A stretch of DNA of 32,676 bases. Source: a virus. The notes below the pieces were generated by a model, which was given only the letters and a program-made list of their open reading frames with translations, made no database searches and was not told where the DNA came from. The position numbers and the translations under genes are program-made. Of this stretch, positions 208 to 23,659 are shown one piece after another (the stretch's first letter is position 1; every line of letters begins with the position of its first letter). The stretch is taken from the IMG/VR virus record IMGVR_UViG_3300045747_000420, positions 1 to 32,676 of that record; one strand, 5' to 3'.

Positions 208-757
208 AATAGACTGGCTGCGTACCATCGCCCTGATAGCGGGTATCCTGGCGGCGTGCTCCATCATCTGGAATCATTTTTACCCAAAGCAAACCGCGTC
301 AACCACCTACACCACCACCGCACCGATCCCCGCAGTCGCCAATGTCCCTACGCAGGAGCTGCCACCACAAAAGGTGATTGTCCTGGTCAAGCAGGAAGCG
401 GTCAAGAAACTGCCAGATCTGCCGCCGGATATGAAAGCAGACCCCAAACAGCAGATCACCACCACAGCAGACATCAAGCCCAGCCCCTACGGTGGCAGCG
501 CCGTCGCCTTCATTAACACCAGCACCGGCAGATCATCGATCATCTACAAAGCCAAGGAAAGACCATGGCTCGGATTCCCGTCTGATATCACACTTGGCGT
601 GCGCTACGGCGTAACCACCCGCGCACCAGGGCAGGAAAGTCAACTCTACGCGAAATGGGATTTTTTCCGAATCGGCAGCGCCTACCTGGGAGCATACGGA
701 GAGGTATCCAGCAGGCCCGAAGCCAAAGCCATGGTTGATATGAGCATGCGATGGTAG
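173..757 (+). CDS. Membrane-anchored phage protein of the late/lysis module
   Basis: This 194-residue protein starts at GTG (173) behind a G-rich ribosome site (AGGGGG, 161-166) and inside the upstream frame. It has one transmembrane segment near the N terminus (about residues 16-35), a Thr/Pro-rich linker (about 40-75), and a C-terminal domain of about 90 residues rich in aromatic and small residues, possibly beta structure. Such a layout fits an inner-membrane protein with a periplasmic domain. The neighbouring two-helix protein and the integrase region just downstream place it at the end of the late operon. A spanin-like role is possible, but it lacks the usual coiled coil and I do not recognise the family. 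Confidence 0.6.
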   Translation: MEIQQIRQYLSKIDWLRTIALIAGILAACSIIWNHFYPKQTASTTYTTTAPIPAVANVPTQELPPQKVIVLVKQEAVKKLPDLPPDMKADPKQQITTTADIKPSPYGGSAVAFINTSTGRSSIIYKAKERPWLGFPSDITLGVRYGVTTRAPGQESQLYAKWDFFRIGSAYLGAYGEVSSRPEAKAMVDMSMRW

Positions 758-765
758 ATCAGTTC

Positions 766-1003
766 TGTTGACGATCTGTTGACGGCTTAAAATGTCACAG
801 AATGTAAAACAATGTATAAGGTATTGATATTACGTTGACGGTTTACGGGGTTTTTAACAGATATTTAGAAGGCATTATGTTTGTAACTAACTGATTTTTA
901 TTACGTATTATTTAAATTATCACACTCTTTCGTAAGGTTCGAACAGCCGTTTAATATCACTAAATATCAATATATTACACAGCTTGTTGACGGTCTGTTG
1001 ACG
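766..1003. other. attP: Candidate attP region with paired arm-type repeats
   Basis: Two direct-repeat pairs of TGTTGACG flank about 200 bases of AT-rich DNA. The left pair is at 766-773 and 777-785, the right pair at 985-993 and 996-1003, and in both pairs the copies are 11 bp apart, one helical turn. A fifth partial copy (CGTTGACGG) lies at 833-841. The right pair overlaps the 3' end of the integrase gene. Paired arm sites on both sides of a core are the known arrangement of attP in tyrosine-integrase phages. The core crossover sequence itself could not be identified. No gene is seen in 758-974. Confidence 0.6.
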
Positions 1004-2093
1004 TTTTGCGGTTTTCAAGTAACGACAGAGCATCATTCAGATCATGTGGTGCCAGATGGATATATCGGAGAGTTGTTTTGATATTCTTATGGCCCGCCCA
1101 CTTCATGACGCGGTAAATATCAACACCGGCCTGCAGCAGTCGGGTGATGCAGGTATGTCTCAGGGCATGGATCACGAAATGCTTGTCATGCTCCAGCTCC
1201 AGCTCTTCGCGCATCCGAGCCCAGACATAATCCGCCTGCACCATGTTGATTTCAAATAGCCGGGACTTATCCTTCCGCGTTTTCATGATGGCCCTTACGC
1301 GTGCTGTCATGGGTATGCTGCGGGGTTTGTCTGCTTTGTTCAGCCAGATGGTGATCATATTGTTTTTCAGATCGATGTCACCAGGTGGAAGGTTGAGTAT
1401 TTCACTTAACCTGGCTCCGGTGTCAAGCAGGCAAATATAGAGATCCGGCATTTCGCGCCACCATATTCTGGCGCTGTCTGGTTTCGACCTGGTGAAGATG
1501 TCCAGGATCTGCTGCTCTTCGGTGTCGCTGATGATCCTGATCCGGCCTTCGATCTCCGGGTCCATGTTAATAAAATCATGTGGCAGTTTGTAAAATCTCA
1601 GTATCGACCGGAGCACAGCTCTATATCTGTTAGCAGTCGAGTCTGCTGTTCCGCGCTCTGCAAGTATGTCTGACATTTTGTGCATGTGTTTTTTGCCGAT
1701 GGCATTTAGCGGTATGTCTCCTATAGTCCCCACTACTAGGCACGCGCGTCTACGCATGCTCTCCCCTGCTTTTTTTTTCTTCCATCGGTCATTGTATAAG
1801 GTTGTGATGGCTTCGGACAGCAGGGGCGATTCCTGGCTGATCTGGTAGGTGTCGAAGAATATCTCGGCTTCGGCTTTTTTGAGGGCGCTCTCGGCGTGCT
1901 GTTTCTGGCGGCCTATTGCCTGTATATGCCGCTTGCCATCAACGATAACTTTGATGTACCAGTCCGGAGAGTACGACGCTGATCCGCCGCACCTGGTGCA
2001 TGGTGGCGCGGGTGTTATTGGCTCGGTGTGCCAGTTCTGTTTGTTGCAGTCTGGACAGCGCAGTATTTTGAATATGGGATTTTTGACGGCCAT
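975..2093 (-). CDS. int: Tyrosine-recombinase phage integrase with N-terminal zinc ribbon
   Basis: This 372-residue protein should integrate and excise the phage by site-specific recombination. The catalytic set is visible: R228 in a TGARLSEIL motif, a beta-hairpin lysine (K253 or K256), H309-x-x-R312 in HALRHT, H335 in WAGHKN, and the nucleophile Y344 about nine residues later. Residues 1-36 carry two Cys-x-x-Cys pairs (C13/C16, C32/C35), so a zinc ribbon precedes the arm-binding region (about 45-80) and SAM-like core-binding domain (about 90-180). It is transcribed toward the candidate attP, and its last codons contain the right arm repeats. Length is normal for lambda-type integrases. The zinc ribbon is a less common addition, probably DNA binding. 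Confidence 0.95.
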   Translation of the reverse strand: MAVKNPIFKILRCPDCNKQNWHTEPITPAPPCTRCGGSASYSPDWYIKVIVDGKRHIQAIGRQKQHAESALKKAEAEIFFDTYQISQESPLLSEAITTLYNDRWKKKKAGESMRRRACLVVGTIGDIPLNAIGKKHMHKMSDILAERGTADSTANRYRAVLRSILRFYKLPHDFINMDPEIEGRIRIISDTEEQQILDIFTRSKPDSARIWWREMPDLYICLLDTGARLSEILNLPPGDIDLKNNMITIWLNKADKPRSIPMTARVRAIMKTRKDKSRLFEINMVQADYVWARMREELELEHDKHFVIHALRHTCITRLLQAGVDIYRVMKWAGHKNIKTTLRYIHLAPHDLNDALSLLENRKTSTDRQQAV

Positions 2094-2121
2094 GGCAGCG
2101 TACCGGGTATAACCTCGATCG

Positions 2122-2643
2122 TTACCTTTTCAGGGAGCGTATTTTTTCTTTTAATGATTCAGGGTTGTTTATTTTGATTATGACAGCTTCTTTCATCGGG
2201 CCTGATGCAGTTGTAAACTCGAGATCCCCTACTCCTAAAATCCTTTGCAAAATACTTTGTGAGACATTAGTGCTTCGGATGTCGTTTATATCGAGCTCGC
2301 ATGTTCGTTTAGATAAAATTCCACACGTACATATTATTCTCTTGCTTGTGACTTTGTATTCGTTGCTCTGTTTTTCCAGCAACACATAGATAATTACAAG
2401 TATCGGTACAACGACAGTAAATATACAAATAGCTGCAAAAATGAACCAGAAAGTATAGGCCTTCCATTCTGGTGACCCTGTCCAGATGGTTCTTTCTGAA
2501 TTAAAATCTGATCTTTCTGCGTTTAATTGTTTGCCGACTTCGGCCCTGGTATGCTCATTTACTGGAGCAGGTGCCCCGCACGCCGGACATTTGTTAATTC
2601 CAAAAGGTATCGATGTATCACATCCTGCACATTTAAGCCCCAT
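2122..2643 (-). CDS. Zinc-ribbon, bacterial PH-domain membrane protein
   Basis: 173 residues. The N terminus has a zinc ribbon (C5/C8 and C19/C22). A long hydrophobic segment follows (about 65-88), probably one or two membrane helices. The C-terminal part (about 92-170) resembles the bPH2/DUF304 domain, with the typical run of a Y-x-V-T-x-K-R start, an L-S-K-R strand and an I-x-x-I-R-S-T-x-V pattern. The ATG is preceded by AAGGAG on the minus strand. The gene lies just upstream of integrase on the same strand, so it may be expressed from the prophage. A role in lysogenic conversion or superinfection exclusion is inference from location only. It is more AT-rich than the structural genes. Confidence 0.7.
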   Translation of the reverse strand: MGLKCAGCDTSIPFGINKCPACGAPAPVNEHTRAEVGKQLNAERSDFNSERTIWTGSPEWKAYTFWFIFAAICIFTVVVPILVIIYVLLEKQSNEYKVTSKRIICTCGILSKRTCELDINDIRSTNVSQSILQRILGVGDLEFTTASGPMKEAVIIKINNPESLKEKIRSLKR

Positions 2644-2680
2644 GGCTTACTCCTTTTTCTTCCCAAGATGTACTGCATGA

Positions 2681-2690
2681 TGTATATACA
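2681..2690. promoter_or_regulatory. Palindrome TGTATATACA between divergent genes
   Basis: A perfect 10-bp palindrome sits in the 53-base gap between the minus-strand PH-domain gene and the plus-strand ribbon-helix-helix gene, directly next to the latter's ribosome site. It is a candidate operator for autoregulation by the small ribbon-helix-helix protein. This rests on sequence symmetry and position only. Confidence 0.3.
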
Positions 2691-2696
2691 ACGGAA

Positions 2697-2837
2697 ATGC
2701 GCCTTAAAACAGAGATTGTGCAGCTGAGACTCACACCTGACGAGAAGGAAGCATTAAAGGCTCTGGCAGCAAAAAAGCAGATGAGTCAATCAGAATATCT
2801 GCGATGGTTGATCGCCCGAGAGTCCGCCAGCCTTTAA
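2697..2837 (+). CDS. Small ribbon-helix-helix-type DNA-binding protein
   Basis: A 46-residue frame from ATG 2697 to TAA 2835-2837, behind a purine-rich ACGGA site. A short alternating hydrophobic strand (VQLRL), a first helix with DEKEALKALA, a turn, then SQSEYLRWLIARE form the strand-helix-turn-helix order of ribbon-helix-helix repressors (Arc/CopG/mobilisation-type). Such proteins bind palindromic operators as dimers. The palindrome at 2681-2690 just upstream is a natural candidate target. It is divergent from the PH-domain gene. The call is by pattern, without homology search. Confidence 0.6.
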   Translation: MRLKTEIVQLRLTPDEKEALKALAAKKQMSQSEYLRWLIARESASL

Positions 2838-3007
2838 TTTTTTCTTTTTCCCTCCCCTTTCACTAAATTCCCGTTATCATTGTAATGTTGTGTGGCAGTA
2901 CATTAACCAAAATGCGTATTCTGTCGCATGAGTCAAAAAGCTACTTGTTCATTAGAAACAAAAAGTATTATATGCCCCTCCTGAAGTCATTCAATTTAGG
3001 AGGTTGT

Positions 3008-3157
3008 ATGCAAGACTACGCCAGGCTGTATCGTTCCAGATCTAATAAGATGACACCGGTGCAAAAGTTAAAGCGAATCAGTAAAATACTTTCTACAAAC
3101 ATGCCGCCGGTAATCATGGTTATGTGCATAATGCTTCTGATCAGAATGGAGCGATAG
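3008..3157 (+). CDS. Small basic protein with C-terminal membrane segment
   Basis: An in-frame start exists at 2885, but ATG 3008 is preferred because TAGGAGGT (2997-3004) is a near-ideal ribosome site at the right spacing. The 49-residue product has a strongly basic N-terminal two thirds followed by a hydrophobic, Met-rich segment (about residues 33-46), so it is probably membrane associated. It ends just before an intrinsic terminator (3163-3193), making it a monocistronic unit convergent with the minus-strand gene at 3169. No family recognised. Confidence 0.5.
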   Translation: MQDYARLYRSRSNKMTPVQKLKRISKILSTNMPPVIMVMCIMLLIRMER

Positions 3158-3162
3158 TCAAA

Positions 3163-3193
3163 CGGGGATCATTGCTGATCCCCGCCCTTTTTT
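3163..3193 (+). terminator. Intrinsic terminator, plus strand
   Basis: CGGGGATCA (3163-3171) and TGATCCCCG (3176-3184) form a perfect 9-bp stem with a TTGC loop, followed by CCC and six T residues (3188-3193). It terminates the small gene ending at 3157 and overlaps the last codons of the convergent minus-strand gene. Confidence 0.8.
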
Positions 3194-3366
3194 ACGCCTT
3201 TCCATTTTTTTTTAAAATCAGCATATGCCTGCGCTCTATCATCCTCTGCCAGTAAGAGCATATCCTTCACCATCAACTGCATAAGTGGATCATCATCCAG
3301 TGCTTTTACCATATTTTTCTGATCTTCTGTGAGTTTCAGGTGTGGTTCGGCTACGCCGTACACCAT
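3169..3366 (-). CDS. Small acidic/amphipathic protein in the repressor operon
   Basis: 65 residues from ATG on the minus strand, starting 6 bases after the stop of the HTH gene at 3373-3546, so the two are almost certainly co-transcribed. The middle (about residues 12-48) is helical and rich in Met, Leu and Asp; the C-terminal 15 residues are basic. The gene's 3' end forms part of the terminator at 3163-3193. It could be an accessory to the small repressor (partner or stability factor), but no family was recognised. Confidence 0.6.
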   Translation of the reverse strand: MVYGVAEPHLKLTEDQKNMVKALDDDPLMQLMVKDMLLLAEDDRAQAYADFKKKWKGVKKGGDQQ

Positions 3367-3372
3367 TTGAAT

Positions 3373-3546
3373 TTAAGCAACTATACCCCGCTCGGTCATT
3401 AATTCAAATGCTCTCCGCTCAATACCAGGAGGAACTCCTGAACGTCTCCAAGTAGATACAGCCCCTTTTTTACGATTAAACAATGGAGCTAGATCCTGAT
3501 CTTCGGTAACAGAAAAATATTTTTTCAATTCGTCTACAGTAATCAT
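3373..3546 (-). CDS. Mini phage repressor, Cro/CI-type helix-turn-helix
   Basis: A 57-residue frame from ATG (3544-3546) to TAA (3373-3375). The middle, residues about 20-52, carries a helix-turn-helix followed by W33-R-R-S-G-V-P-P and an E-R-R-A-F-E-L helix. That is the signature of phage CI/Cro-like DNA-binding domains in which a Trp and a G-V-P turn follow the recognition helix. It lacks any C-terminal oligomerisation or peptidase domain, so it is either a Cro analogue or a minimal lysogeny repressor. It is divergent from the rightward early operon; the palindrome at 3579-3595 lies 33 bases upstream of its start. Low GC relative to the structural genes. Confidence 0.7.
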   Translation of the reverse strand: MITVDELKKYFSVTEDQDLAPLFNRKKGAVSTWRRSGVPPGIERRAFELMTERGIVA

Positions 3547-3572
3547 TTTTTTGCACCGGTCTATTTTTACGG

Positions 3573-6420: not shown

Positions 6421-8062
6421 CACCGACAACAAAGTCATCGACATCAAAGCCGCCGTAGAAGAGCGCAAGCGCCTCGAAGAAGCCGCCCTCGCCGAAAAGG
6501 GTGACGCAGCTGAAAAAGGCCCGCGCCTCACCGCCGCCAAGATCAAACAATGCCTGCAAGCCAACGAGCTCGGCGACGGCACCTTGTTTGCCGCCATCAA
6601 CCACGGCAAATATCTGTACAACAAGACCCTCGACAAATGGCTGCAATGGCAGGGGCACCACTGGGAATACGACACCATGGAAGAGCGGTATCACGCCGTC
6701 GAAATCGTCGCCGAAACCTACCTCAAAGAAGCCTACGAGCTAAAAGACGACATCGAAGCCGAGCGTGCCAAGGGCACCAAAGATGAAGCAAATGCCTTCT
6801 TCCAGCTGCAGAAATCATACTTCGCCCGGGTCAAACGCCTGCGCTCCAACAGCGGCGCAACCGCATGCCTCACCTACAGCCACAGGATAGAAGACCCACT
6901 CGCCATCAAAGGTGACGAACTCGACACCAACCCTTGGCTGCTCGCCTGCACCAACGGCGTATTGGATCTCCGGACAGGCAAACTGCGTGACGGCCGCCCT
7001 GGTGATCACCTCTTAAAACACGTCCACCACGAATGGCGCGGCATCGACGCACCTGCCCCCGCCTTCGAAAGTTTTCTCGCCAGCGCATTAGATGGCGACC
7101 CCATGACGCACCAGGACGAGCGCGATCAGCACCGCGAGCATGTCACCGCCTTCGTACAGCGCGCCCTCGGCTACGGCATCACTGGCCACAACACCGAACA
7201 CATATTTTTAGTCTTCAACGGTGCCGGCCGAAATGGAAAAGGCGTCCTCGTCGAAACCCTGCGTTATGTCCTGGGCGGATTGGCAGGCCCCATCCCGGCA
7301 GAAATGCTGCTTGATCAGGGCAGAGCCGCCACACCATCAGGCCCCACACCGCACATCATGGCACTCAAAGGACTGCGGATCGCCTTCGCCAGCGAAACCG
7401 ACGAAGGCCGCAGGTTCAGCCCTGGTCAAGTCAAATGGTACTCAGGCGGCGACACCCTCAAAGGCCGCGACCTCAACGCCAAGGATTACATCGACTTCGA
7501 CCCCACGCACCTGCTGATCCTGCTCACCAACAACCTGCCGCACGCCCCTGGTGACGACTTCGCCTTCTGGCAGCGCCTCAAGCTCATCCCGTTTCACTAC
7601 AGCTTCGTAGCCGAACCGGACCCAAACAAGTCCAACCAGAAACAGCGCGACGACCAGCTGCGCGAAAAACTGAAATCCGAAGCCAGCGGAATCTTGGCAT
7701 GGCTCGTCCGTGGATGCTTAGCATGGCAGCAGCAAGGGCTCCGGCCACCAGATCAGGTCACCAGCGCAACCGAAGAATACCGCCTCGGCGAAGACACCAT
7801 CACCCAGTTTGTCTCCGAGACCTGCGACCAGGCCGCCGATCTGCGCAGCAACGCCACCGACATCTACAACATCTTCAAGCGCTGGTACAAAATCAACGTC
7901 AGCGCCAAGCCTGGCAGCTGCCCCGCCCAGAAGAAATTCGGCAGCATGCTCGGCAAGCAGTTCAAAAAAGAAAAGGTCGGAGGCTCCACCAGATACTTCG
8001 GCCTGCAGCTCAAAGAGAATGTGCATCAGTTGTACCCGGAAGAGACCACCGCAGGACGATGA
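6413..8062 (+). CDS. D5/P4-type SF3 helicase (primase-helicase family)
   Basis: The frame is open from 6275, but the preferred start is TTG 6413, which overlaps the upstream stop, has GGAG 10 bases before it and removes a 46-residue shadow; product 549 residues. It is the replicative DNA helicase of the phage. The D5_N domain (about 200-250) is followed by an SF3 ATPase: Walker A G-A-G-R-N-G-K-G (270-277), Walker B region I-A-F-A-S-E-T-D-E, motif C L-I-L-L-T-N-N (about 368-374), and a C-terminal winged helix (about 470-520). The N-terminal part lacks a clear primase active site; the separate primase at 8413 supplies that. The iteron region follows directly. Confidence 0.9.
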   Translation: MSDTDNKVIDIKAAVEERKRLEEAALAEKGDAAEKGPRLTAAKIKQCLQANELGDGTLFAAINHGKYLYNKTLDKWLQWQGHHWEYDTMEERYHAVEIVAETYLKEAYELKDDIEAERAKGTKDEANAFFQLQKSYFARVKRLRSNSGATACLTYSHRIEDPLAIKGDELDTNPWLLACTNGVLDLRTGKLRDGRPGDHLLKHVHHEWRGIDAPAPAFESFLASALDGDPMTHQDERDQHREHVTAFVQRALGYGITGHNTEHIFLVFNGAGRNGKGVLVETLRYVLGGLAGPIPAEMLLDQGRAATPSGPTPHIMALKGLRIAFASETDEGRRFSPGQVKWYSGGDTLKGRDLNAKDYIDFDPTHLLILLTNNLPHAPGDDFAFWQRLKLIPFHYSFVAEPDPNKSNQKQRDDQLREKLKSEASGILAWLVRGCLAWQQQGLRPPDQVTSATEEYRLGEDTITQFVSETCDQAADLRSNATDIYNIFKRWYKINVSAKPGSCPAQKKFGSMLGKQFKKEKVGGSTRYFGLQLKENVHQLYPEETTAGR

Positions 8063-8124
8063 TGGGCGGGCCGGAAGGCTCTTAAATATAGGGTAAGGGG
8101 GGAAGTATGAAACATGCAATTAAC

Positions 8125-8399
8125 AGGACAATAGGACGATGCAGGATGATAGCTTTTCGGATTGTCCTGCATCGTAACTATCCAGATTAAAACAGCAAAA
8201 CAACTGTATCAGGACGATAGGACGATAAACGCAATTGATAGGGATAATTTACACTCCCCACAGGACTTTAAGACTTTACTCTATTATTGTCCTATTGTCC
8301 TAAAACTATAAAAAAGAATAAAGAATATAAGCATTTATAGGGCAGGACAGACGGTTTTTTATAGTCCTGCTATCGTCCTAAAGTCCTGATAATAGTCCT
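8125..8399. repeat. ori: Iteron-rich candidate replication origin
   Basis: The 350-base gap between helicase and primase has no gene. It holds about a dozen copies of an 8-mer AGGACRAT in both orientations: forward at 8125, 8133, 8143 (variant), 8211 and 8219; reverse (ATYGTCCT or ATAGTCCT) at 8161, 8286, 8294, 8361, 8372 and 8392. Several are tandem at exactly 8 bp. ACGATGCAGGA (8136-8146) and TCCTGCATCGT (8165-8175) form a perfect 11-bp inverted repeat. A very AT-rich stretch (about 8301-8342) could be the unwinding element. Iterons plus AT-rich DNA beside initiator-type genes is the usual origin layout. Confidence 0.55.
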
Positions 8400-8412
8400 G
8401 GTCGGAGAGAAA

Positions 8413-9813
8413 ATGAACCTGCTCGACATCGCACAAAAAGACGGCCGCACCTACCGCAGGGTCAGCAGTATCCACGGCGGCGAATACCACGGCCCCTGCC
8501 CGTCCTGCGGCGGCACCGATCGCTTCCACGTCTGGCCCGAGCAGGGCGACTATGGCACCTTCTGGTGTCGTGGCTGCTCCCTGGGTGGCGACGCCATCGA
8601 ATACCTCATGAAGATCGAAGGCATGCCGTTCCCGCAGGCTTGCAAAGAAGTCGGAAAAGAGCTCCCCGAAAATGAAGACTTCCAGAAGCCTACATTCAAA
8701 CGCCCCACTACCGGTGAAACCTTCACCCCTCGGGAAACAAGCAGCGCCTCCGAACTCTGGATCCAGCACGCCGTCAAGCTGGGAGACTGGGCGCATGACC
8801 AACTGTTGAACAACCCTTTGCAGCTGGAAATACTCGCGTGCCGTGGCCTTGATCTGGACGCCGTCAAAAAATACAAACTAGGCTGGAACCCCGGAGAAAA
8901 AGGAAAAGACCTCTACCGCGCCCGTGAAGCCTGGGGCCTGCCAACCCTCACCAAAGAAGACGGCAAAGCAAAAAAACTCTGGCTGCCGGTCGGCCTCGTC
9001 ATCCCGTACTATTTCTGCGGCACCCTACAGCGCATTCGTATCCGTCGCCCCGAAGGTGAACCACGCTATTATCTGGTACCCGGCTCCAACATGGCACCCA
9101 TGATCCTCGGTGAAAGCACCAGGGCATACATCATCGTCGAAAGTGAACTCGATGCCCTGCTCATCCATCACCTGGCCGGAGATCTGATCGGAGTCATCTC
9201 CCAGGGGAACAGCACCGCCAAACCGGACGACGTCACAGCCTTCCTCCTTAAAAACGCCCTGTCAATACTGGTGGCCCTTGACAGTGACAAAGCAGGTATG
9301 GAGGCCTCAACCTGGTGGCAGAAACACTTTCCGCAGGCCGAACGCTGGCCCGTCCCGATCGGCAAAGATCCCGGAGAAGCCTGGAAAGCCGGTCTTGACA
9401 TCCGCGAATGGATCAAAGCAGGCCTCCCCCCCGTCATCACCATGCCGAAAATTCAGCAATCCACCCCTGTCCCCTCATCAGTCCAGGACAATAATTCTGG
9501 CGCGGGTCTTTCTGCTGCTCCTACCGAGACCGAACAGCCGCAGCAACTCGCCCAGGTAATCACCAGCAAAGACGGCCGACAGGTCTTCATCACCGACAAC
9601 CGCGCAGAATATGACCAGCTCGTCGCCCAGGGCAAGATCGTCTTCGACTCAAAAGAAATCGCCTTCGTCAAACTCTCCGGAGCCGATCAGGAGCAGGCCG
9701 CCAAATTCCTCGACGCCAAACAGACCTTCCCCGGCTGCCGCGTCATCAGCGCCGATCCCGATTACGTCCGCCCGATAGACGAACCCAAACAAAAAGCATA
9801 CTACGTCCGATAG
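8413..9813 (+). CDS. DnaG-like DNA primase (zinc finger plus TOPRIM)
   Basis: 466 residues from ATG 8413 behind GGAGAG. The N-terminal zinc finger has C29/C32 and C52/C55, with G-G-T-D-R-F-H and G-D-A-I-E-Y-L, the typical CHC2-type primase finger. A TOPRIM domain covers about 235-330, with the glutamate in I-I-V-E-S-E-L-D-A (about 241) and the D-S-D-K-A-G acidic motif (about 289). The C-terminal 130 residues are Pro/Gln-rich linker plus a small alpha/beta domain. It makes RNA primers for the phage fork and pairs with the SF3 helicase upstream. It is shorter than bacterial DnaG. The stop overlaps the ribosome site of the clamp gene. Confidence 0.9.
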   Translation: MNLLDIAQKDGRTYRRVSSIHGGEYHGPCPSCGGTDRFHVWPEQGDYGTFWCRGCSLGGDAIEYLMKIEGMPFPQACKEVGKELPENEDFQKPTFKRPTTGETFTPRETSSASELWIQHAVKLGDWAHDQLLNNPLQLEILACRGLDLDAVKKYKLGWNPGEKGKDLYRAREAWGLPTLTKEDGKAKKLWLPVGLVIPYYFCGTLQRIRIRRPEGEPRYYLVPGSNMAPMILGESTRAYIIVESELDALLIHHLAGDLIGVISQGNSTAKPDDVTAFLLKNALSILVALDSDKAGMEASTWWQKHFPQAERWPVPIGKDPGEAWKAGLDIREWIKAGLPPVITMPKIQQSTPVPSSVQDNNSGAGLSAAPTETEQPQQLAQVITSKDGRQVFITDNRAEYDQLVAQGKIVFDSKEIAFVKLSGADQEQAAKFLDAKQTFPGCRVISADPDYVRPIDEPKQKAYYVR

Positions 9814-9821
9814 GAGCCCTC

Positions 9822-11021
9822 ATGAAATTCACCATCCCCCAGAAAGAACTTGTCGCAGCACTCACCCGCTGCGCCGCCATCGCCGGTGGCAGATCCAGCA
9901 CCCCCATACTCGAGCAGGTCCTGCTCGACCCGCGTGCGGGCTGCCTGCACGTCCAGGCTACCGACCTGGAGATAGGATACCACACCGTAGTAGATGGCAT
10001 TATCTGGCTTGGTGTCGATACCTTTGTCCCTGGTGAGTATCTGCCCTTCACCCTCCCGGCAAAAAAACTGCTCGAAATCGTCAAAGCCATCCCCGTCACC
10101 ATGGTAGACTTCACCGCCGGAGACATGCAGACCTTTACCATCTCAGGCGGCACCGTATCCTACACCCTCGCCGGACTCGATCCGTCCGAATACCCGGCCA
10201 CCGAAAACATCCAGGGCAGCTTCATCACCATCCCTGCCCACACCCTGCACCAGGCGCTCGGGCCCGTCACCTACTGCCAGAGCAAAAACACAGAAAAAGC
10301 CAACCTCAACGGCAGCTGGTTCAAACTCGAAGAAAATGAAAATGACGACATCTTCCTTACCACCGCCTCCACCGACGGTCACCGCCTCTGCCTCAACAGC
10401 ATCCCCATCCCTGGCGGAGACGACGACGAAGGCCTCGACTACCTGCCCGAGCTCGCCAAAGGCATCACCATCCCCGGCAAAGGCATCTCCGAAATACTCG
10501 CCCTCGATATCAAAAGCGGAGCCGACGAAGACGGAAACACCCTCGCCGTCATCACCATGGCCAACAACAGCCTCGCCGTCTCCATCGGACACGAACGGCT
10601 CACCATCAGACTGCTCGCCACAGAATTCCCCGACGTCAACCGGGTCATCCCCACTGGCCAGACCGAGCGGATCAGCATCAAGCGCCAGTCCCTCATCGAC
10701 TCCATCCTCCGCTGCCGCATCGCCACCGACAAAGAAAACCTGCGCGGCATCGATCTCAAGGTCAACGAAGAGCGCGACGGCATCGTCCTCTCCGCCGCCA
10801 TCCCGCTTTTGGGTCTCGAAGCCCACGATCGCATCACCGCCGAAATAACCGAATCACCCGAACCCATGCGCTTCAACGCCGAATACCTGCTACAGGCCCT
10901 CAACAACATCGGCACCACCAATGTCGACATCCTCTTCAAAGGCCCGCTCACCCCCGTCATGATCGTACCGGCTGGCTCAGACTTCCCCCAGGCCGTCATC
11001 ATGCCCATGCGAGGTGCCTAA
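9822..11021 (+). CDS. dnaN: Phage-encoded DNA polymerase III beta sliding clamp
   Basis: 399 residues, against 366 for E. coli DnaN. It begins with M-K-F-T-I-P-x-x-x-L, contains S-S-T-P-I-L-E in the first domain, L-A-G-L-D-P-S-E-Y-P-A (the domain 1 to 2 signature), T-D-G-H-R-L in the second domain, F-P-D-V-N-R-V-I-P in the linker to the third, and ends with V-I-M-P-M-R, the standard DnaN C terminus that lines the partner-binding pocket. Three clamp domains are therefore all present. No polymerase or clamp loader is seen in the window, so it presumably works with host Pol III. ATG follows AGGAG by 6 bases. Its stop overlaps the next start (TAATG). Confidence 0.93.
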   Translation: MKFTIPQKELVAALTRCAAIAGGRSSTPILEQVLLDPRAGCLHVQATDLEIGYHTVVDGIIWLGVDTFVPGEYLPFTLPAKKLLEIVKAIPVTMVDFTAGDMQTFTISGGTVSYTLAGLDPSEYPATENIQGSFITIPAHTLHQALGPVTYCQSKNTEKANLNGSWFKLEENENDDIFLTTASTDGHRLCLNSIPIPGGDDDEGLDYLPELAKGITIPGKGISEILALDIKSGADEDGNTLAVITMANNSLAVSIGHERLTIRLLATEFPDVNRVIPTGQTERISIKRQSLIDSILRCRIATDKENLRGIDLKVNEERDGIVLSAAIPLLGLEAHDRITAEITESPEPMRFNAEYLLQALNNIGTTNVDILFKGPLTPVMIVPAGSDFPQAVIMPMRGA

Positions 11022-11488
11022 TGGCAAAAGACTTCGTACAGATGGATCTGTTTGAACAAGAGCCGGTCGCCGAAACCGAAGACCTGTACGCCCTGGCCAA
11101 AGAACGGGCCAAATCTACAATCACCATCAAATTGTCTCCGGAGTATTTCGAAGAAAAAGGCCTACTGCGAAAAGCAATGATCCTTACAAAGGGAATGGTC
11201 GGTATCCCCGAATCAGGAAAAATCAGTAAAGTATTTCATTGCGAAGAAAACATCTATGCAATCACCGGCAGCCTCTCAAGTGGGATTGCCGGCAACATCA
11301 AGTTTTTCGGGTACAGGCTCATCCCCCGCAACAACTGGAATGATGAAGCAATAACCCCGATAACTATTGCCGAGCATAACAACGCCCCGAGAAGATCACC
11401 GTTATCGTATACCGGCTGTCTGCTGACATACCAAAAGCAGGAATTCGTCGCTTATCGTCCTGTTGATTTTGTTCGGGCCGTAGGCTAA
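11021..11488 (+). CDS. Small protein with N-terminal clamp-binding motif
   Basis: 155 residues, coupled to the clamp gene by a TAATG overlap. Residues 7-11 read Q-M-D-L-F, almost the consensus pentapeptide (QL[S/D]LF) by which polymerases, MutS, DnaE and Hda dock on the beta clamp. The following 20 residues are acidic and probably flexible; the rest (about 40-155) is a mixed domain I do not recognise, with S-P-E-Y-F-E-E-K-G and a hydrophobic beta-like C-terminal half. It is probably a dedicated partner of the phage clamp: a recruiter, clamp-loader aid or regulator. Motif seen in sequence; role inferred. Confidence 0.75.
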   Translation: MAKDFVQMDLFEQEPVAETEDLYALAKERAKSTITIKLSPEYFEEKGLLRKAMILTKGMVGIPESGKISKVFHCEENIYAITGSLSSGIAGNIKFFGYRLIPRNNWNDEAITPITIAEHNNAPRRSPLSYTGCLLTYQKQEFVAYRPVDFVRAVG

Positions 11489-11493
11489 CAGCT

Positions 11494-11561
11494 TGCCCTG
11501 CCGTGACCATCAAGCCCTGGAGCCGTACTTCGATGGTCGGTAAACCAGGGACGGCAGGGCA
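11494..11561 (+). other. Compact pseudoknot-forming element (candidate structured RNA)
   Basis: Three pairs of complementary segments are packed into 68 bases. Outer stem: TGCCCTGCCGT (11494-11504) with ACGGCAGGGCA (11551-11561), 11 bp. Inside, GACCATC (11505-11511) pairs with GATGGTC (11532-11538), and CCCTGG (11515-11520) pairs with CCAGGG (11545-11550). The two inner stems interleave, giving an H-type pseudoknot that abuts the outer stem on both sides. It lies just after the clamp-partner gene. The order recalls HDV-like ribozymes, but the position of the catalytic cytosine appears to be T. It could equally act as a termination or processing structure. Confidence 0.5.
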
Positions 11562-11564
11562 GTA

Positions 11565-11619
11565 TATAACGGCTTGAGCTGAACCGCCGCGAAGCGGTCG
11601 GGTCGGAACGCTGGTTATA
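11565..11619. other. attC-like element 1
   Basis: TATAAC (11565-11570) and GTTATA (11614-11619) form outer R-box-like arms. An inner imperfect stem centres on ACCGC (11583-11587) and GCGGT (11594-11598), with a bulged A at 11582 and an unpaired spacer between the two stems. The right end, GCTGGTTATA, is identical to that of element 2 at 12271-12280. The next ORF begins 17 bases after the arm, as in integron gene cassettes. Less regular than element 2. Confidence 0.5.
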
Positions 11620-11636
11620 GTGCGAAGGAGTAAACC

Positions 11637-11942
11637 GTGGCAAACACACCAAATATCAGATTTTGTAGGCACTGTGACACGTTCCATTATTGGTGGGAAT
11701 CTTGTGAATACGAAAGGACAATTAAAATGACTGAAATGGAAAATGCGTTATGCGAGCAAAACAAAGCACTTGTGGAATTAGGTGAGGATAATATTGGGTT
11801 ACGGGACAGAGTAAACGTATTAGAAGAATATATTACAAGGCTTGAGATGGATTTGGAACAGGCTAACGACAATATGCGATATTGGCAACGGGCTGCATCT
11901 AAAGCAGAAGCCATTGTCAGTGAGATGGAGGAGGTAAAATGA
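11637..11942 (+). CDS. Cassette ORF 1: zinc-finger-like N terminus plus coiled coil
   Basis: 101 residues from GTG 11637 with AAGGAG (11625-11630) at correct spacing; an in-frame ATG 90 bases downstream is an alternative. The N terminus has C-R-H-C then H and a further C within 15 residues, possibly zinc binding. Residues about 30-100 form a long helix with heptad Leu/Val/Ile spacing, a coiled coil. The gene is more AT-rich than the phage genes around it. It starts directly after attC-like element 1 and is coupled to the next ORF by ATGA, so both travel as one unit. Function unknown. Confidence 0.6.
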   Translation: MANTPNIRFCRHCDTFHYWWESCEYERTIKMTEMENALCEQNKALVELGEDNIGLRDRVNVLEEYITRLEMDLEQANDNMRYWQRAASKAEAIVSEMEEVK

Positions 11943-12229
11943 ATTGGTGGGAAAATCCTGAGATAAAGAAAATGTATGCCGTAGGTCAGGGTTTCTCTGG
12001 CAAGGCACAGGACGGGCAAAAAGATGGCTGGATGCTCGAAGGTCTTTTTGAGACAGAGCAGGAAGCAATAGACCACTGCACCGTTGATGATTACGCAGTC
12101 TTTCCGCTGCCCGTTGGGATTATGACCGGTACATCGCTCCCTAATGGCATATTCTGGCCGAGACTCCAAAGCAAAGAAGAGGGACAAGAGAGACTTGAAA
12201 AATTCCGGCAAGGCGTGGTGCTGGACTAG
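11939..12229 (+). CDS. Cassette ORF 2: hypothetical protein
   Basis: 96 residues from ATG 11939 (ATGA overlap with ORF 1, ribosome site GGAGG at 11928-11932). It is rich in aromatic residues (several Trp, Phe), with an acidic segment E-T-E-Q-E-A-I-D-H-C-T-V-D-D and a charged C-terminal helix. The segment from about residue 40 resembles short domains that read a displayed value or field, but no family can be named. The stop codon is only 3 bases before attC-like element 2, the usual compact layout of an integron cassette. Function unknown; may carry an accessory (for example defence or counter-defence) function. Confidence 0.6.
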   Translation: MNWWENPEIKKMYAVGQGFSGKAQDGQKDGWMLEGLFETEQEAIDHCTVDDYAVFPLPVGIMTGTSLPNGIFWPRLQSKEEGQERLEKFRQGVVLD

Positions 12230-12232
12230 CAC

Positions 12233-12280
12233 TATAACATCAAGGCTGACCGGCCCCGTCCGGTCGTGCCGCTGGTTATA
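12233..12280. other. attC-like element 2
   Basis: Outer arms TATAAC (12233-12238) and GTTATA (12275-12280) are separated from an inner stem by unpaired bases ATCAA and GCTG. The inner stem pairs GGCTGACCGG (12244-12253) with CCGGTCGTGCC (12260-12270), leaving one extrahelical T (12267) and a terminal loop CCCCGT. Two stems, an unpaired central spacer, an extrahelical base and a variable terminal loop are the defining structural features of integron attC recombination sites. The R boxes depart slightly from the RYYYAAC/GTTRRRY consensus. Confidence 0.55.
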
Positions 12281-12298
12281 ACAAAAACAGGAGAAACC

Positions 12299-12556
12299 AT
12301 GTACCGATTCCCAAAAACAATCTTTACCTACAACGCCCCATTCGTACAGCTCGAGCATATCAAATCCGAAATGCTCGAAGTCGTCTACGCCTATGACAAC
12401 GAACAGATGAACCGTGTCGCCGAAGAGGTCCTCGACCTGATCCACTCCTGCGAAACCTTCCTGCGGATACTCGAGCAGCGGCAGGCCATCGACGTCCCGA
12501 TCCTCCATGATCTCATCGTCGAAAAAAACCGGCTGCGGGGTTACTATGCCAAGTGA
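12299..12556 (+). CDS. MazG-like NTP pyrophosphohydrolase domain protein
   Basis: The frame is open from 12266, but ATG 12299 follows CAGGAG (12288-12293) and is preferred; product 85 residues. The all-alpha pattern E24-M-L-E27 followed by E43-V-L-D46 matches the E-x-x-E, E-x-x-D magnesium-binding signature of MazG-like nucleotide pyrophosphohydrolases. In phages such enzymes hydrolyse nucleotide pools or (p)ppGpp-related signals. GC-rich, C-ending codons show it belongs to the phage rather than to the cassette upstream. Its end overlaps the next small gene. Confidence 0.6.
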   Translation: MYRFPKTIFTYNAPFVQLEHIKSEMLEVVYAYDNEQMNRVAEEVLDLIHSCETFLRILEQRQAIDVPILHDLIVEKNRLRGYYAK

Positions 12557-15529: not shown

Positions 15530-15540
15530 CCTTTTCACGT

Positions 15541-15610
15541 GGACAAAGGTGGACATGCGTGGATAAAGTATGACAAAGGTGGACAAAGGTGGACAAGAGT
15601 GGACAAGGGT
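15541..15610. repeat. Seven tandem 10-bp units (GGACAAAGGT)
   Basis: Seven consecutive 10-base units run at exact 10-bp period: GGACAAAGGT at 15541 and 15581, and variants at 15551, 15561, 15571, 15591 and 15601 that keep GGACA or GACAA. The period equals one helical turn, so repeated words face the same side of DNA. It is the only gap in the terminase-portal region. It may be a protein-binding array or a short-word repeat of the host type; the last unit builds the terminator stem. Confidence 0.75.
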
Positions 15611-15634
15611 GCCTATCCTGTCCACTTTTTTTTT
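15598..15634 (+). terminator. Intrinsic terminator formed from the last repeat unit
   Basis: AGTGGACA (15598-15605) pairs with TGTCCACT (15619-15626), with a 13-base loop, followed by nine T residues (15626-15634). This is a typical rho-independent terminator lying within the late operon, so it would reduce or regulate expression of the head genes unless read through or antiterminated. Confidence 0.7.
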
Positions 15635-15648
15635 GACACTCTTGCAGC

Positions 15649-16218
15649 ATGTCGCAACCGATCCCCTCCATAGAACCCGCCGTCATAACAGCAGGCGACA
15701 CCATAACCTGGTCACGCTCCCTGCCGGACTATCCGGCCTCGGGCGGCTGGGTTCTACATTATGCCCTGCGCGGCCTTGCCGGAGTCGTCGATCTCATCAG
15801 CAGCGCCTATCAGACTGACGACCACCTGATCAACATCTCGGCAGCAACCTCCGGGGTATATGTCGCCGGGCAGTATTCCATTCAGGGCTACGTCACCAAC
15901 GGCACCAACCGCGTCACCGTTTATGCCGGTTCCATCTCCATCACGCCAAACCTGGTCACCGCAGCCGCCGGTTACGATGGCCGCTCCCACGTCAAAAAAG
16001 TACTCGACTCGCTCGAAGCCGTAATCGAAGGCCGCGCAACCCGTGATCAGCTCCAGCTAACCATAGACGGCACAACTCTGGTCAAGATGACACCCGAGCA
16101 GATCCTCACCTGGCGTGCCCAGTATTACCGGGAATACCGCAGAGAGCTTGCCTCCGCACGCGCAGCACAGGGCAAAAACTCCGGCCGCAAAATAGTCACT
16201 CAATTCGTGAGGCGCTAA
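15649..16218 (+). CDS. Ig-like domain fused to gpW-like head-tail joining domain
   Basis: 189 residues; ATG 15649 has only a weak upstream site. Residues about 8-100 form a beta-rich, immunoglobulin-like domain (alternating hydrophobic strands, G-D-T-I-T-W). Residues about 115-185 follow the gpW pattern: helix L-x-x-L-E-A-V-I-x-G-R, a beta strand D-Q-L-Q-L-T-I-D-G, then M-T-P-E-Q-I-L-T-W-R-x-x-Y-x-x-E-Y-R-R-E. Lambda gpW has 68 residues and sits between A and B, as here between terminase and portal. It completes the head so that FII and the tail can attach. The added N-terminal domain is unusual. Confidence 0.65.
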   Translation: MSQPIPSIEPAVITAGDTITWSRSLPDYPASGGWVLHYALRGLAGVVDLISSAYQTDDHLINISAATSGVYVAGQYSIQGYVTNGTNRVTVYAGSISITPNLVTAAAGYDGRSHVKKVLDSLEAVIEGRATRDQLQLTIDGTTLVKMTPEQILTWRAQYYREYRRELASARAAQGKNSGRKIVTQFVRR

Positions 16219-23030: not shown

Positions 23031-23497
23031 GCGTAGCCGATCAGCTTGACACATACATCCGAGCCCAGCTGCAGAAGATCCTTACCGGGCAGAGTATCAC
23101 CCTGTTCGGAGGCACGGTCTACAGCTTCCGCACCAACGCCGGGCGGCTGGTAGACAAGCAGCTCGAATACACCGAGCACCCGGACGACATGCCCGCCCTG
23201 GTCTTCTACAGCGGCAAAAACACCAGCACCACCGAAAACGCCGAGCTGGGCATGGAAAACCACCTGCAGGAAATCAGCATCGAAGGCTTTATCGCCTCCG
23301 ACAAGGCCGGCACCGAAGGCGACGATCTCCGGCTCGACATCGCCGCCGCCATCAAAGCCGATCCCTGGTGGGGCGGTCTGATCATGGACATGCAGGGTTT
23401 CGAAACCGACACCGCCATCCAGATCGGCGACGAAGTCTTCACCGTCGTCAAAGTATCTTTCACCGTACTGTACACCGCCCCTTACGGGTCTGAATAA
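23027..23497 (+). CDS. Tail terminator, gpU-like
   Basis: 156 residues. The pattern of an N-terminal helix (R-A-Q-L-Q-K-I-L), a beta-sheet with central L-E-I-S-I-E-G-F-I-A-S, an I-A-A-A-I-K-A-D helix with D-P-W-W-G-G-L, and a final strand E-V-F-T-V-V-K-V-S-F-T-V-L-Y matches phage tail terminators (lambda gpU, 131 residues), which cap the tube at the head-proximal end. Position between FII-like and tail tube genes agrees. It starts in a 4-base overlap with the preceding gene. Confidence 0.65.
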   Translation: MSVADQLDTYIRAQLQKILTGQSITLFGGTVYSFRTNAGRLVDKQLEYTEHPDDMPALVFYSGKNTSTTENAELGMENHLQEISIEGFIASDKAGTEGDDLRLDIAAAIKADPWWGGLIMDMQGFETDTAIQIGDEVFTVVKVSFTVLYTAPYGSE

Positions 23498-23503
23498 ACC
23501 GTA

Positions 23504-23640
23504 TTAAACACAGAGACACAGAGGACACCGAGAAAATCAAAGGCAAAACTTAGGGGTAAATCAAAATCTTTTTTTTGACGTACCCATAAAGATTCAGGTT
23601 TCAGGTTTTCCTCTGTGTTCTCTGTGCCTCTGTGTTTAAC
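23504..23640. repeat. Long inverted repeat of CTCTGTG/CACAGAG words
   Basis: The left arm (23504-23536) is built of ACACAGAG words; the right arm (about 23607-23640) is the near-complement made of CTCTGTG words, about 33 bases each with few mismatches. Inside, a shorter GGGTA/TACCC pair is present. It fills the 162-base gap between tail terminator and the next small gene. I recall such CACAGAG-rich palindromes as common dispersed repeats in environmental bacterial genomes. It contains no gene. Confidence 0.8.
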
Positions 23641-23659
23641 CCGTTTTTAAGGAGTTTTT

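Follow-up and report, generated by a model that had tools for sequence, protein, structure and literature searches.

The viral record analyzed here, the whole of which (32,676 bases) is termed the window, very likely carries a one-cassette phage array of the CALIN type, most probably belonging to a phage-resident integron lineage. The window phage genes include a phage integrase, a D5-type primase, a beta clamp and a GpA-type terminase. Two hairpins and two coupled open reading frames sit between the open reading frame at 11021-11488 and a small MazG-like gene at 12299, and the array is flanked by the beta clamp gene and the terminase genes. The two hairpins are identified as attC sites; their recombination by an integrase is inferred and has not been shown. 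The features of the region are listed below, where R1 and R2 are attC covariance models trained on bacterial-type and phage sites, respectively, and L154 and L163 are phage arrays with duplicated cassettes.

11564..11620, minus strand: attC site 1 (hairpin 1); R2 29.2 bits, E=8.5e-5; R1 12.6 bits, E=0.63; R' box 11564-11570, R'' box 11614-11620, predicted crossover between 11569 and 11570
11570..12237, plus strand: predicted cassette unit (attC 1 + ORF A + ORF B), 668 bp, inferred from the boundaries of the L154 and L163 duplications
11637..11942, plus strand: ORF A, 101 aa, GTG start, AAGGAG ribosome site
11939..12229, plus strand: ORF B, 96 aa, ATG overlapping the ORF A stop (11939-11942)
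12232..12281, minus strand: attC site 2 (hairpin 2); R2 27.8 bits, E=1.9e-4; R1 17.9 bits, E=0.028; R' box 12232-12238, R'' box 12275-12281, predicted crossover between 12237 and 12238
12299..12556, plus strand: MazG-like gene following the array; weak MazG match below the curated cut-off

Hairpin 1 (11565-11619, 55 nt) and hairpin 2 (12233-12280, 48 nt) both have the form TATAAC...GTTATA, and in each the 6-nt ends are perfectly complementary. The initial annotation had described two similar hairpins with shared ends, one of them TATAAC, and its coordinates were exact. It had also claimed an inner stem, an unpaired spacer and an extrahelical base, as in attC sites. These are clear in hairpin 2, which displays a clean inner stem (GGC-AC-GACC / GGTC-A-GCC); the inner stem of hairpin 1 is imperfect, with several mismatched inner pairs in the R2 alignment. 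The R' boxes of the window, GTTATAT and GTTATAG, deviate from GTTRRRY; the AAC/GTT and the R''/R' complementarity are present. DNA folding z-scores of the plus strand are modest, -1.2 for hairpin 1 and -2.5 for hairpin 2. Folding by itself is weak evidence for either site, and the hairpins were therefore tested with covariance models.

The R1 model was built from 22 attC sites, none of them from the window, with the variable middles trimmed. The training sites came from class 1 cassettes (plasmids and phage P1), Shewanella phage M16-3, a Vibrio phage array and Tetrasphaera phage TJE1. When the window is scored with R1 without filters, hairpin 2 ranks first and hairpin 1 third, both on the minus strand. 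The R2 model was built from 19 R1 matches located beside phage-encoded integron integrases and contains no sequence from the window, L016, L059 or L063. It recognizes exactly hairpins 1 and 2 in the window, 611 bp apart, and the next match has only 8.3 bits. The background is low, with one R2 match in 697 kb of 67 other phage loci, and R2 reciprocally recovers the class 1, Vibrio, Shewanella and TJE1 attC sites, each on the correct strand. The attC covariance search that had been proposed as a check is thus passed, the matches being on the minus strand. The identity and orientation of the attC sites are shown by these sequence comparisons. The agreement of R2 with other phage sites is partly built in, as the model is phage-trained; independent support comes from R1, from the stop-codon counts and from the duplications described below. 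The weak points of the window case are that the array has a single cassette and that R1, which lists both sites, gives hairpin 1 only at E=0.63.

A home-made stem scanner was also tried; it was too noisy in AT-rich phages and the covariance models were used instead. A search of viral contigs with the exact end pattern returned 92 stretches, most of them evidently chance occurrences, and four other contigs with real arrays.

The two open reading frames are arranged as initially described: the GTG of ORF A at 11637 is 17 nt past hairpin 1, and the ORF B stop, TAG at 12229, is 3 nt ahead of attC 2 and not flush with it. A stop codon 3 nt before the R' box of attC 2 represents the phage-type gene orientation defined below, and no open reading frame of at least 60 aa ends at either R'' box of the window. 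The claim that these frames are AT-richer than the phage genes holds against the contig, i.e. the GC content is 40% in ORF A, 49.5% in ORF B and 54.8% in the contig. The ORF A protein has a Cys/His-rich start followed by a coiled-coil-like region, and it has no convincing family match; ORF B has no family match, and tblastn detected no phage relatives of either. With the beta clamp and ORF B as queries, close relatives of the window phage were not found in the collections searched, and therefore no comparison with an empty site is available; these collections likewise gave no relatives of ORF A or ORF B at any other place.

An integron integrase is also missing, as first claimed. The TIGR02249 model gives only matches below its cut-off, which fall on the ordinary phage integrase at 975-2093, and the attI model R3 has no match in the window; the contig may be incomplete. 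As the window has neither intI nor attI, the array is of the CALIN type, and the proposed small, phage-borne CALIN is supported in the form of an integrase-less array of two attC sites. One part of the initial annotation needs correction. The attC sites point opposite to the open reading frames, and the cassette is attC + ORF A + ORF B rather than the open reading frames followed by attC.

Related phages encode an integron integrase of their own. L093, one of the four contigs with arrays found by the end pattern, encodes a protein that scores 305 bits against TIGR02249, the NCBIfam integron integrase model, where the cut-off is 265; the closest solved structure is IntI4. Searches with the L093 IntI gave about 20 viral contigs, together with 10 contigs that come mostly from Geobacter/Deltaproteobacteria metagenome-assembled genomes (MAGs). 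The carriers of this clade are about 30 phages or prophages, with Geobacter/Deltaproteobacteria MAGs as hosts where these are known. In 18 aligned IntI sequences of the clade the catalytic residues R-K-H-R-H-Y are invariant, and a run of about ten residues follows FATHWLE that is not seen in the canonical IntIs compared. A quick tree has a branch (SH-aLRT 99) that separates 29 phage-clade IntIs from 18 others, which include IntI1, Vibrio, Shewanella and chromosomal IntI-like proteins from the same host group. The bacterial sample is limited; the clade itself is shown by the sequences. In the order of a Geobacter carrier, 6 of 141 genomes matched at E<=1e-100. No IntI in the annotated phage collection exceeds about 38% identity to the L093 protein.

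Loci L176, L177 and L178 (genomes G012 and G008) encode integron-integrase-like proteins with N-terminal extensions, in open frames of 457-493 codons. These are distinct from the phage IntI clade; attC-like sites are present upstream in L177.

With R1 at E<=0.5, all 19 matches in the phage IntI loci are on the minus strand and upstream of a plus-strand intI. R2 gives 61 matches in the IntI loci, 19 of them the training sites, and all are upstream of intI and on the opposite strand to it. Some IntI loci (L161, L125 and L127) show no attC at E<=3; several IntI loci are contig ends. A conserved motif, TAACATCnATTA..GCC..GGC..TATAAC, is found upstream of intI in an alignment of 29 loci. Its conservation is shown, and it is likely to be the attI of these phages. 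The order in the related phage loci is attC arrays upstream, then the attI-like motif, then intI, with the genes in the phage direction. The arrangement of IntI and attC is thus the usual integron geometry.

Near intI in these loci are genes for replication (primase, TOPRIM protein, beta clamp, helicase loader), genes for terminase and portal proteins, which belong to several families, or both. In prophage L123 the order is primase, beta clamp, small terminase, array, intI, large terminase, portal and capsid gene, and the similar location of the window array is evident from the sequences. A homologue of the window MazG-like gene directly follows intI in L102 and L096. The window portal protein is 57% identical to that of L123, but the large terminase subunit (TerL) is only about 27% identical, thus the window phage and the L123-type phages are mosaic relatives.

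Cassette genes that were sampled encode N6/N4, C5 and Dam-type DNA methyltransferases and DUF5131, DHH, YopX and DUF5662 proteins; weaker matches are to ASCH, radical SAM, MazG and SspD. The presence of DNA methyltransferases in several relatives suggests an anti-restriction benefit of the cargo, which is an inference.

The genes of the phage cassettes are inverted relative to attC. At 49 of 63 phage attC sites the R' side coincides with the end of a gene encoded on the same strand as intI, and at 7 of 63 a gene ends at R''; the commonest last three bases before the crossover in the R'-ending genes are TAA. The same stop-codon test applied to control arrays gives the opposite picture, 4/48 at R' and 33/48 at R'', the 48 sites being from bacterial arrays, captured arrays and TJE1. 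The difference is highly significant (Fisher p=5e-14 for 49:7 vs 4:33), with the reservation that sites within one array are not fully independent. The phage count leaves out L063, where the genes appear to run in the usual direction; adding L063 brings the totals to 49 R'-type and 10 R''-type sites among 72. The inversion is shown by these counts. The possibility that the phage attC sites point the same way as the genes was considered and rejected on the strand of the model matches, the stop-codon counts and the duplications in L154 and L163.

L063 (IMGVR_UViG_3300007775_000018) has about nine attC sites in 3.8 kb; in the region concerned, 351-3566, the few genes that abut attC are in the usual bacterial orientation. 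No intI was found in this contig.

Two natural duplications show the boundaries of the cassette. L163 has a tandem duplication of a 547-bp cassette unit, with copies at 7287-7839 and 7834-8386. The bases to the left of ATAAC differ between the copies (GGC vs CAG), and attC and gene are identical up to the next TAAC. L154 contains two copies of a 715-bp stretch, at 7755-8469 and 9201-9915, with a methyltransferase cassette between them; the junction is with attC for one copy and with attI for the other, at TCTAAC in either case. The boundaries of the copies thus define the moving unit as attC plus gene, cut at the left end, and map the crossover to TAA/C (the slash marks the point of exchange). 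The duplicated cassettes are 100% identical in both loci. This suggests recent integrase activity, which is inferred, as no recombination was observed.

In the proposed mechanism, IntI would bind the folded, single-stranded form of attC in the manner of known integron integrases; the predicted recombinogenic strand is the plus strand of the window. The exchange would occur at R', which on the gene strand reads RYYYAA/C. Each cassette would consist of attC and then the gene, with the stop codon usually ending at the crossover, and a new cassette would land beside attI, in line with the phage genes. Expression as part of a phage operon is likewise an inference. The window phage would have lost intI and attI or never had them, and without these its cassette would therefore be movable only if an integrase were supplied in trans; this mobility, like recombination activity in general, is inferred. 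The window array is at most an integrase-less offshoot of the phage integron lineage.

A bolder reading, which we consider more likely than not, is that phages of Geobacter/Deltaproteobacteria-type hosts maintain an integron of their own, with an IntI clade, a conserved attI and inverted cassettes near the packaging genes, and swap small accessory genes by means of it, e.g. anti-restriction methyltransferases. The window phage would then hold an integrase-less array that can be serviced in trans.

Of the competing explanations, the one that survives best is that hairpin 2 is a modified attI and not an attC, and that the window is a platform which has lost intI alone. In its favor, hairpin 2 starts with TATAACATCAA, which resembles the attI motif, and TAACATCAA is common to hairpin 2 and attI. 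The position of hairpin 2, immediately ahead of the MazG-like gene, is also that of attI in L102 and L096. However, R3 has no match in the window and R2 scores hairpin 2 as a full attC. This explanation is considered unlikely, although an attI remnant is not excluded.

A second explanation is that the phage acquired the cassette from a bacterial array, be it a host chromosomal integron or another, so that the phage is a mere carrier and there is no phage integron lineage. Phages with captured pieces of bacterial integrons have been published (PMC9892861), the window cassette is AT-richer than the phage, and Geobacter-group genomes have IntI-like genes of their own, one with attC-like sites. 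Against this, the gene orientation in the window is the phage type, opposite to most of the bacterial control arrays, the phage-trained R2 gives the window sites far higher scores than the bacterial-trained R1 does, and the array occupies the junction where related phages keep intI. Capture from a host is thus very improbable. Phages with their own IntI and attI-like site have the arrays that come closest to the window array by attC model score, gene orientation and genomic position, and a host-chromosomal origin is therefore not required. The suggestion that the phage transports integron cassettes is modified to this extent, i.e. the cassette need not derive from a host chromosomal integron.

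That the hairpins are ordinary repeats (terminators or REP-like palindromes), attC-like by chance or convergence, has in its favor the modest folding z-scores and the weak hairpin 1 score with the bacterial model, but is very hard to sustain, as only these two hairpins stand out with R2, which matches about once per 700 kb elsewhere, and as they share one orientation, flank one gene unit and sit where related phages have attC arrays beside intI.

The preferred reading, a CALIN-type array from a phage-resident lineage, can be compared with known systems. Phage CALINs, and bacterial integrons captured by phages, have been reported, and five of six phage attC sites were found to recombine with IntI1 (Qi et al. 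2023, PMC9892861). The published phage CALINs, e.g. that of Tetrasphaera phage TJE1, where R2 recognizes two sites, are similar to the window in having at least two attC sites with cassette open reading frames and no integrase, and DNA methyltransferase cargo is common to them and the related phage arrays. They differ in that their genes run in the usual direction or their attC sites are mixed, and no phage-specific IntI/attI lineage was described with them; in the phage arrays analyzed here the genes run opposite to the usual direction with respect to attC, and an IntI and an attI-like site of their own are present in related phages. Captured integrons (Vibrio p16, Shewanella M16-3, and P1 with class 1 integrons) also place IntI, attI and/or attC arrays in phage genomes. 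Their IntIs are host or clinical ones, however, and the L093-type IntI clade stands apart.

Class 1 and sedentary chromosomal integrons share with the phage systems the attC architecture, an IntI family protein with the catalytic residues, an array on the attI side and attC sites that point away from intI. Their genes normally run away from intI with stops at R'', whereas those of the phage arrays run toward intI with stops at R'. Reverse integrons, in Treponema denticola and others, have intI and cassettes in one direction (PMC6557892, PMC7691350). In Treponema the cassettes come after intI and the stop codon is in R'', unlike the phage arrays, where the cassettes are upstream of intI and the stop is on R'.

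The literature searched, which did not extend to most subscription papers or to any preprints, gave no description of inverted cassettes of this kind or of an IntI clade in phages. Phage CALINs and captured bacterial integrons are already published; an IntI clade of phages that has an attI of its own and cassettes in inverted orientation appears to be a new form. Integrons have so far been studied as bacterial devices that are sometimes picked up by phages or plasmids. A phage-resident lineage, if confirmed, would mean that viruses themselves use integron recombination. Phages and bacteria would thereby have a concrete path for exchanging cassettes, and integron cassettes would not need to be read from the usual Pc promoter side.

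The window displays other repeats. A third, far stronger hairpin, with a 10-bp GCCCTGCCGT/ACGGCAGGGC stem, is at 11483-11563, immediately before attC 1. Its left end is abutted by the TAA stop of the open reading frame at 11021-11488, as in phage cassettes, but it is without R'' and is scored by neither attC model; it may possibly be a decayed attC. Direct and inverted AGGACAATAGGACGAT-like repeats at 8119-8393, between the primase gene and the next gene, could represent an origin or a regulatory region. Several GTGGACAAAG-like repeats of about 10 nt precede the gene at 15649; they lie in a row at 15539-15616. A 41-nt imperfect inverted repeat (ACACAGAGACACAGAGG...), whose arms are 70 nt apart, is located between two phage genes at 23496-23647.
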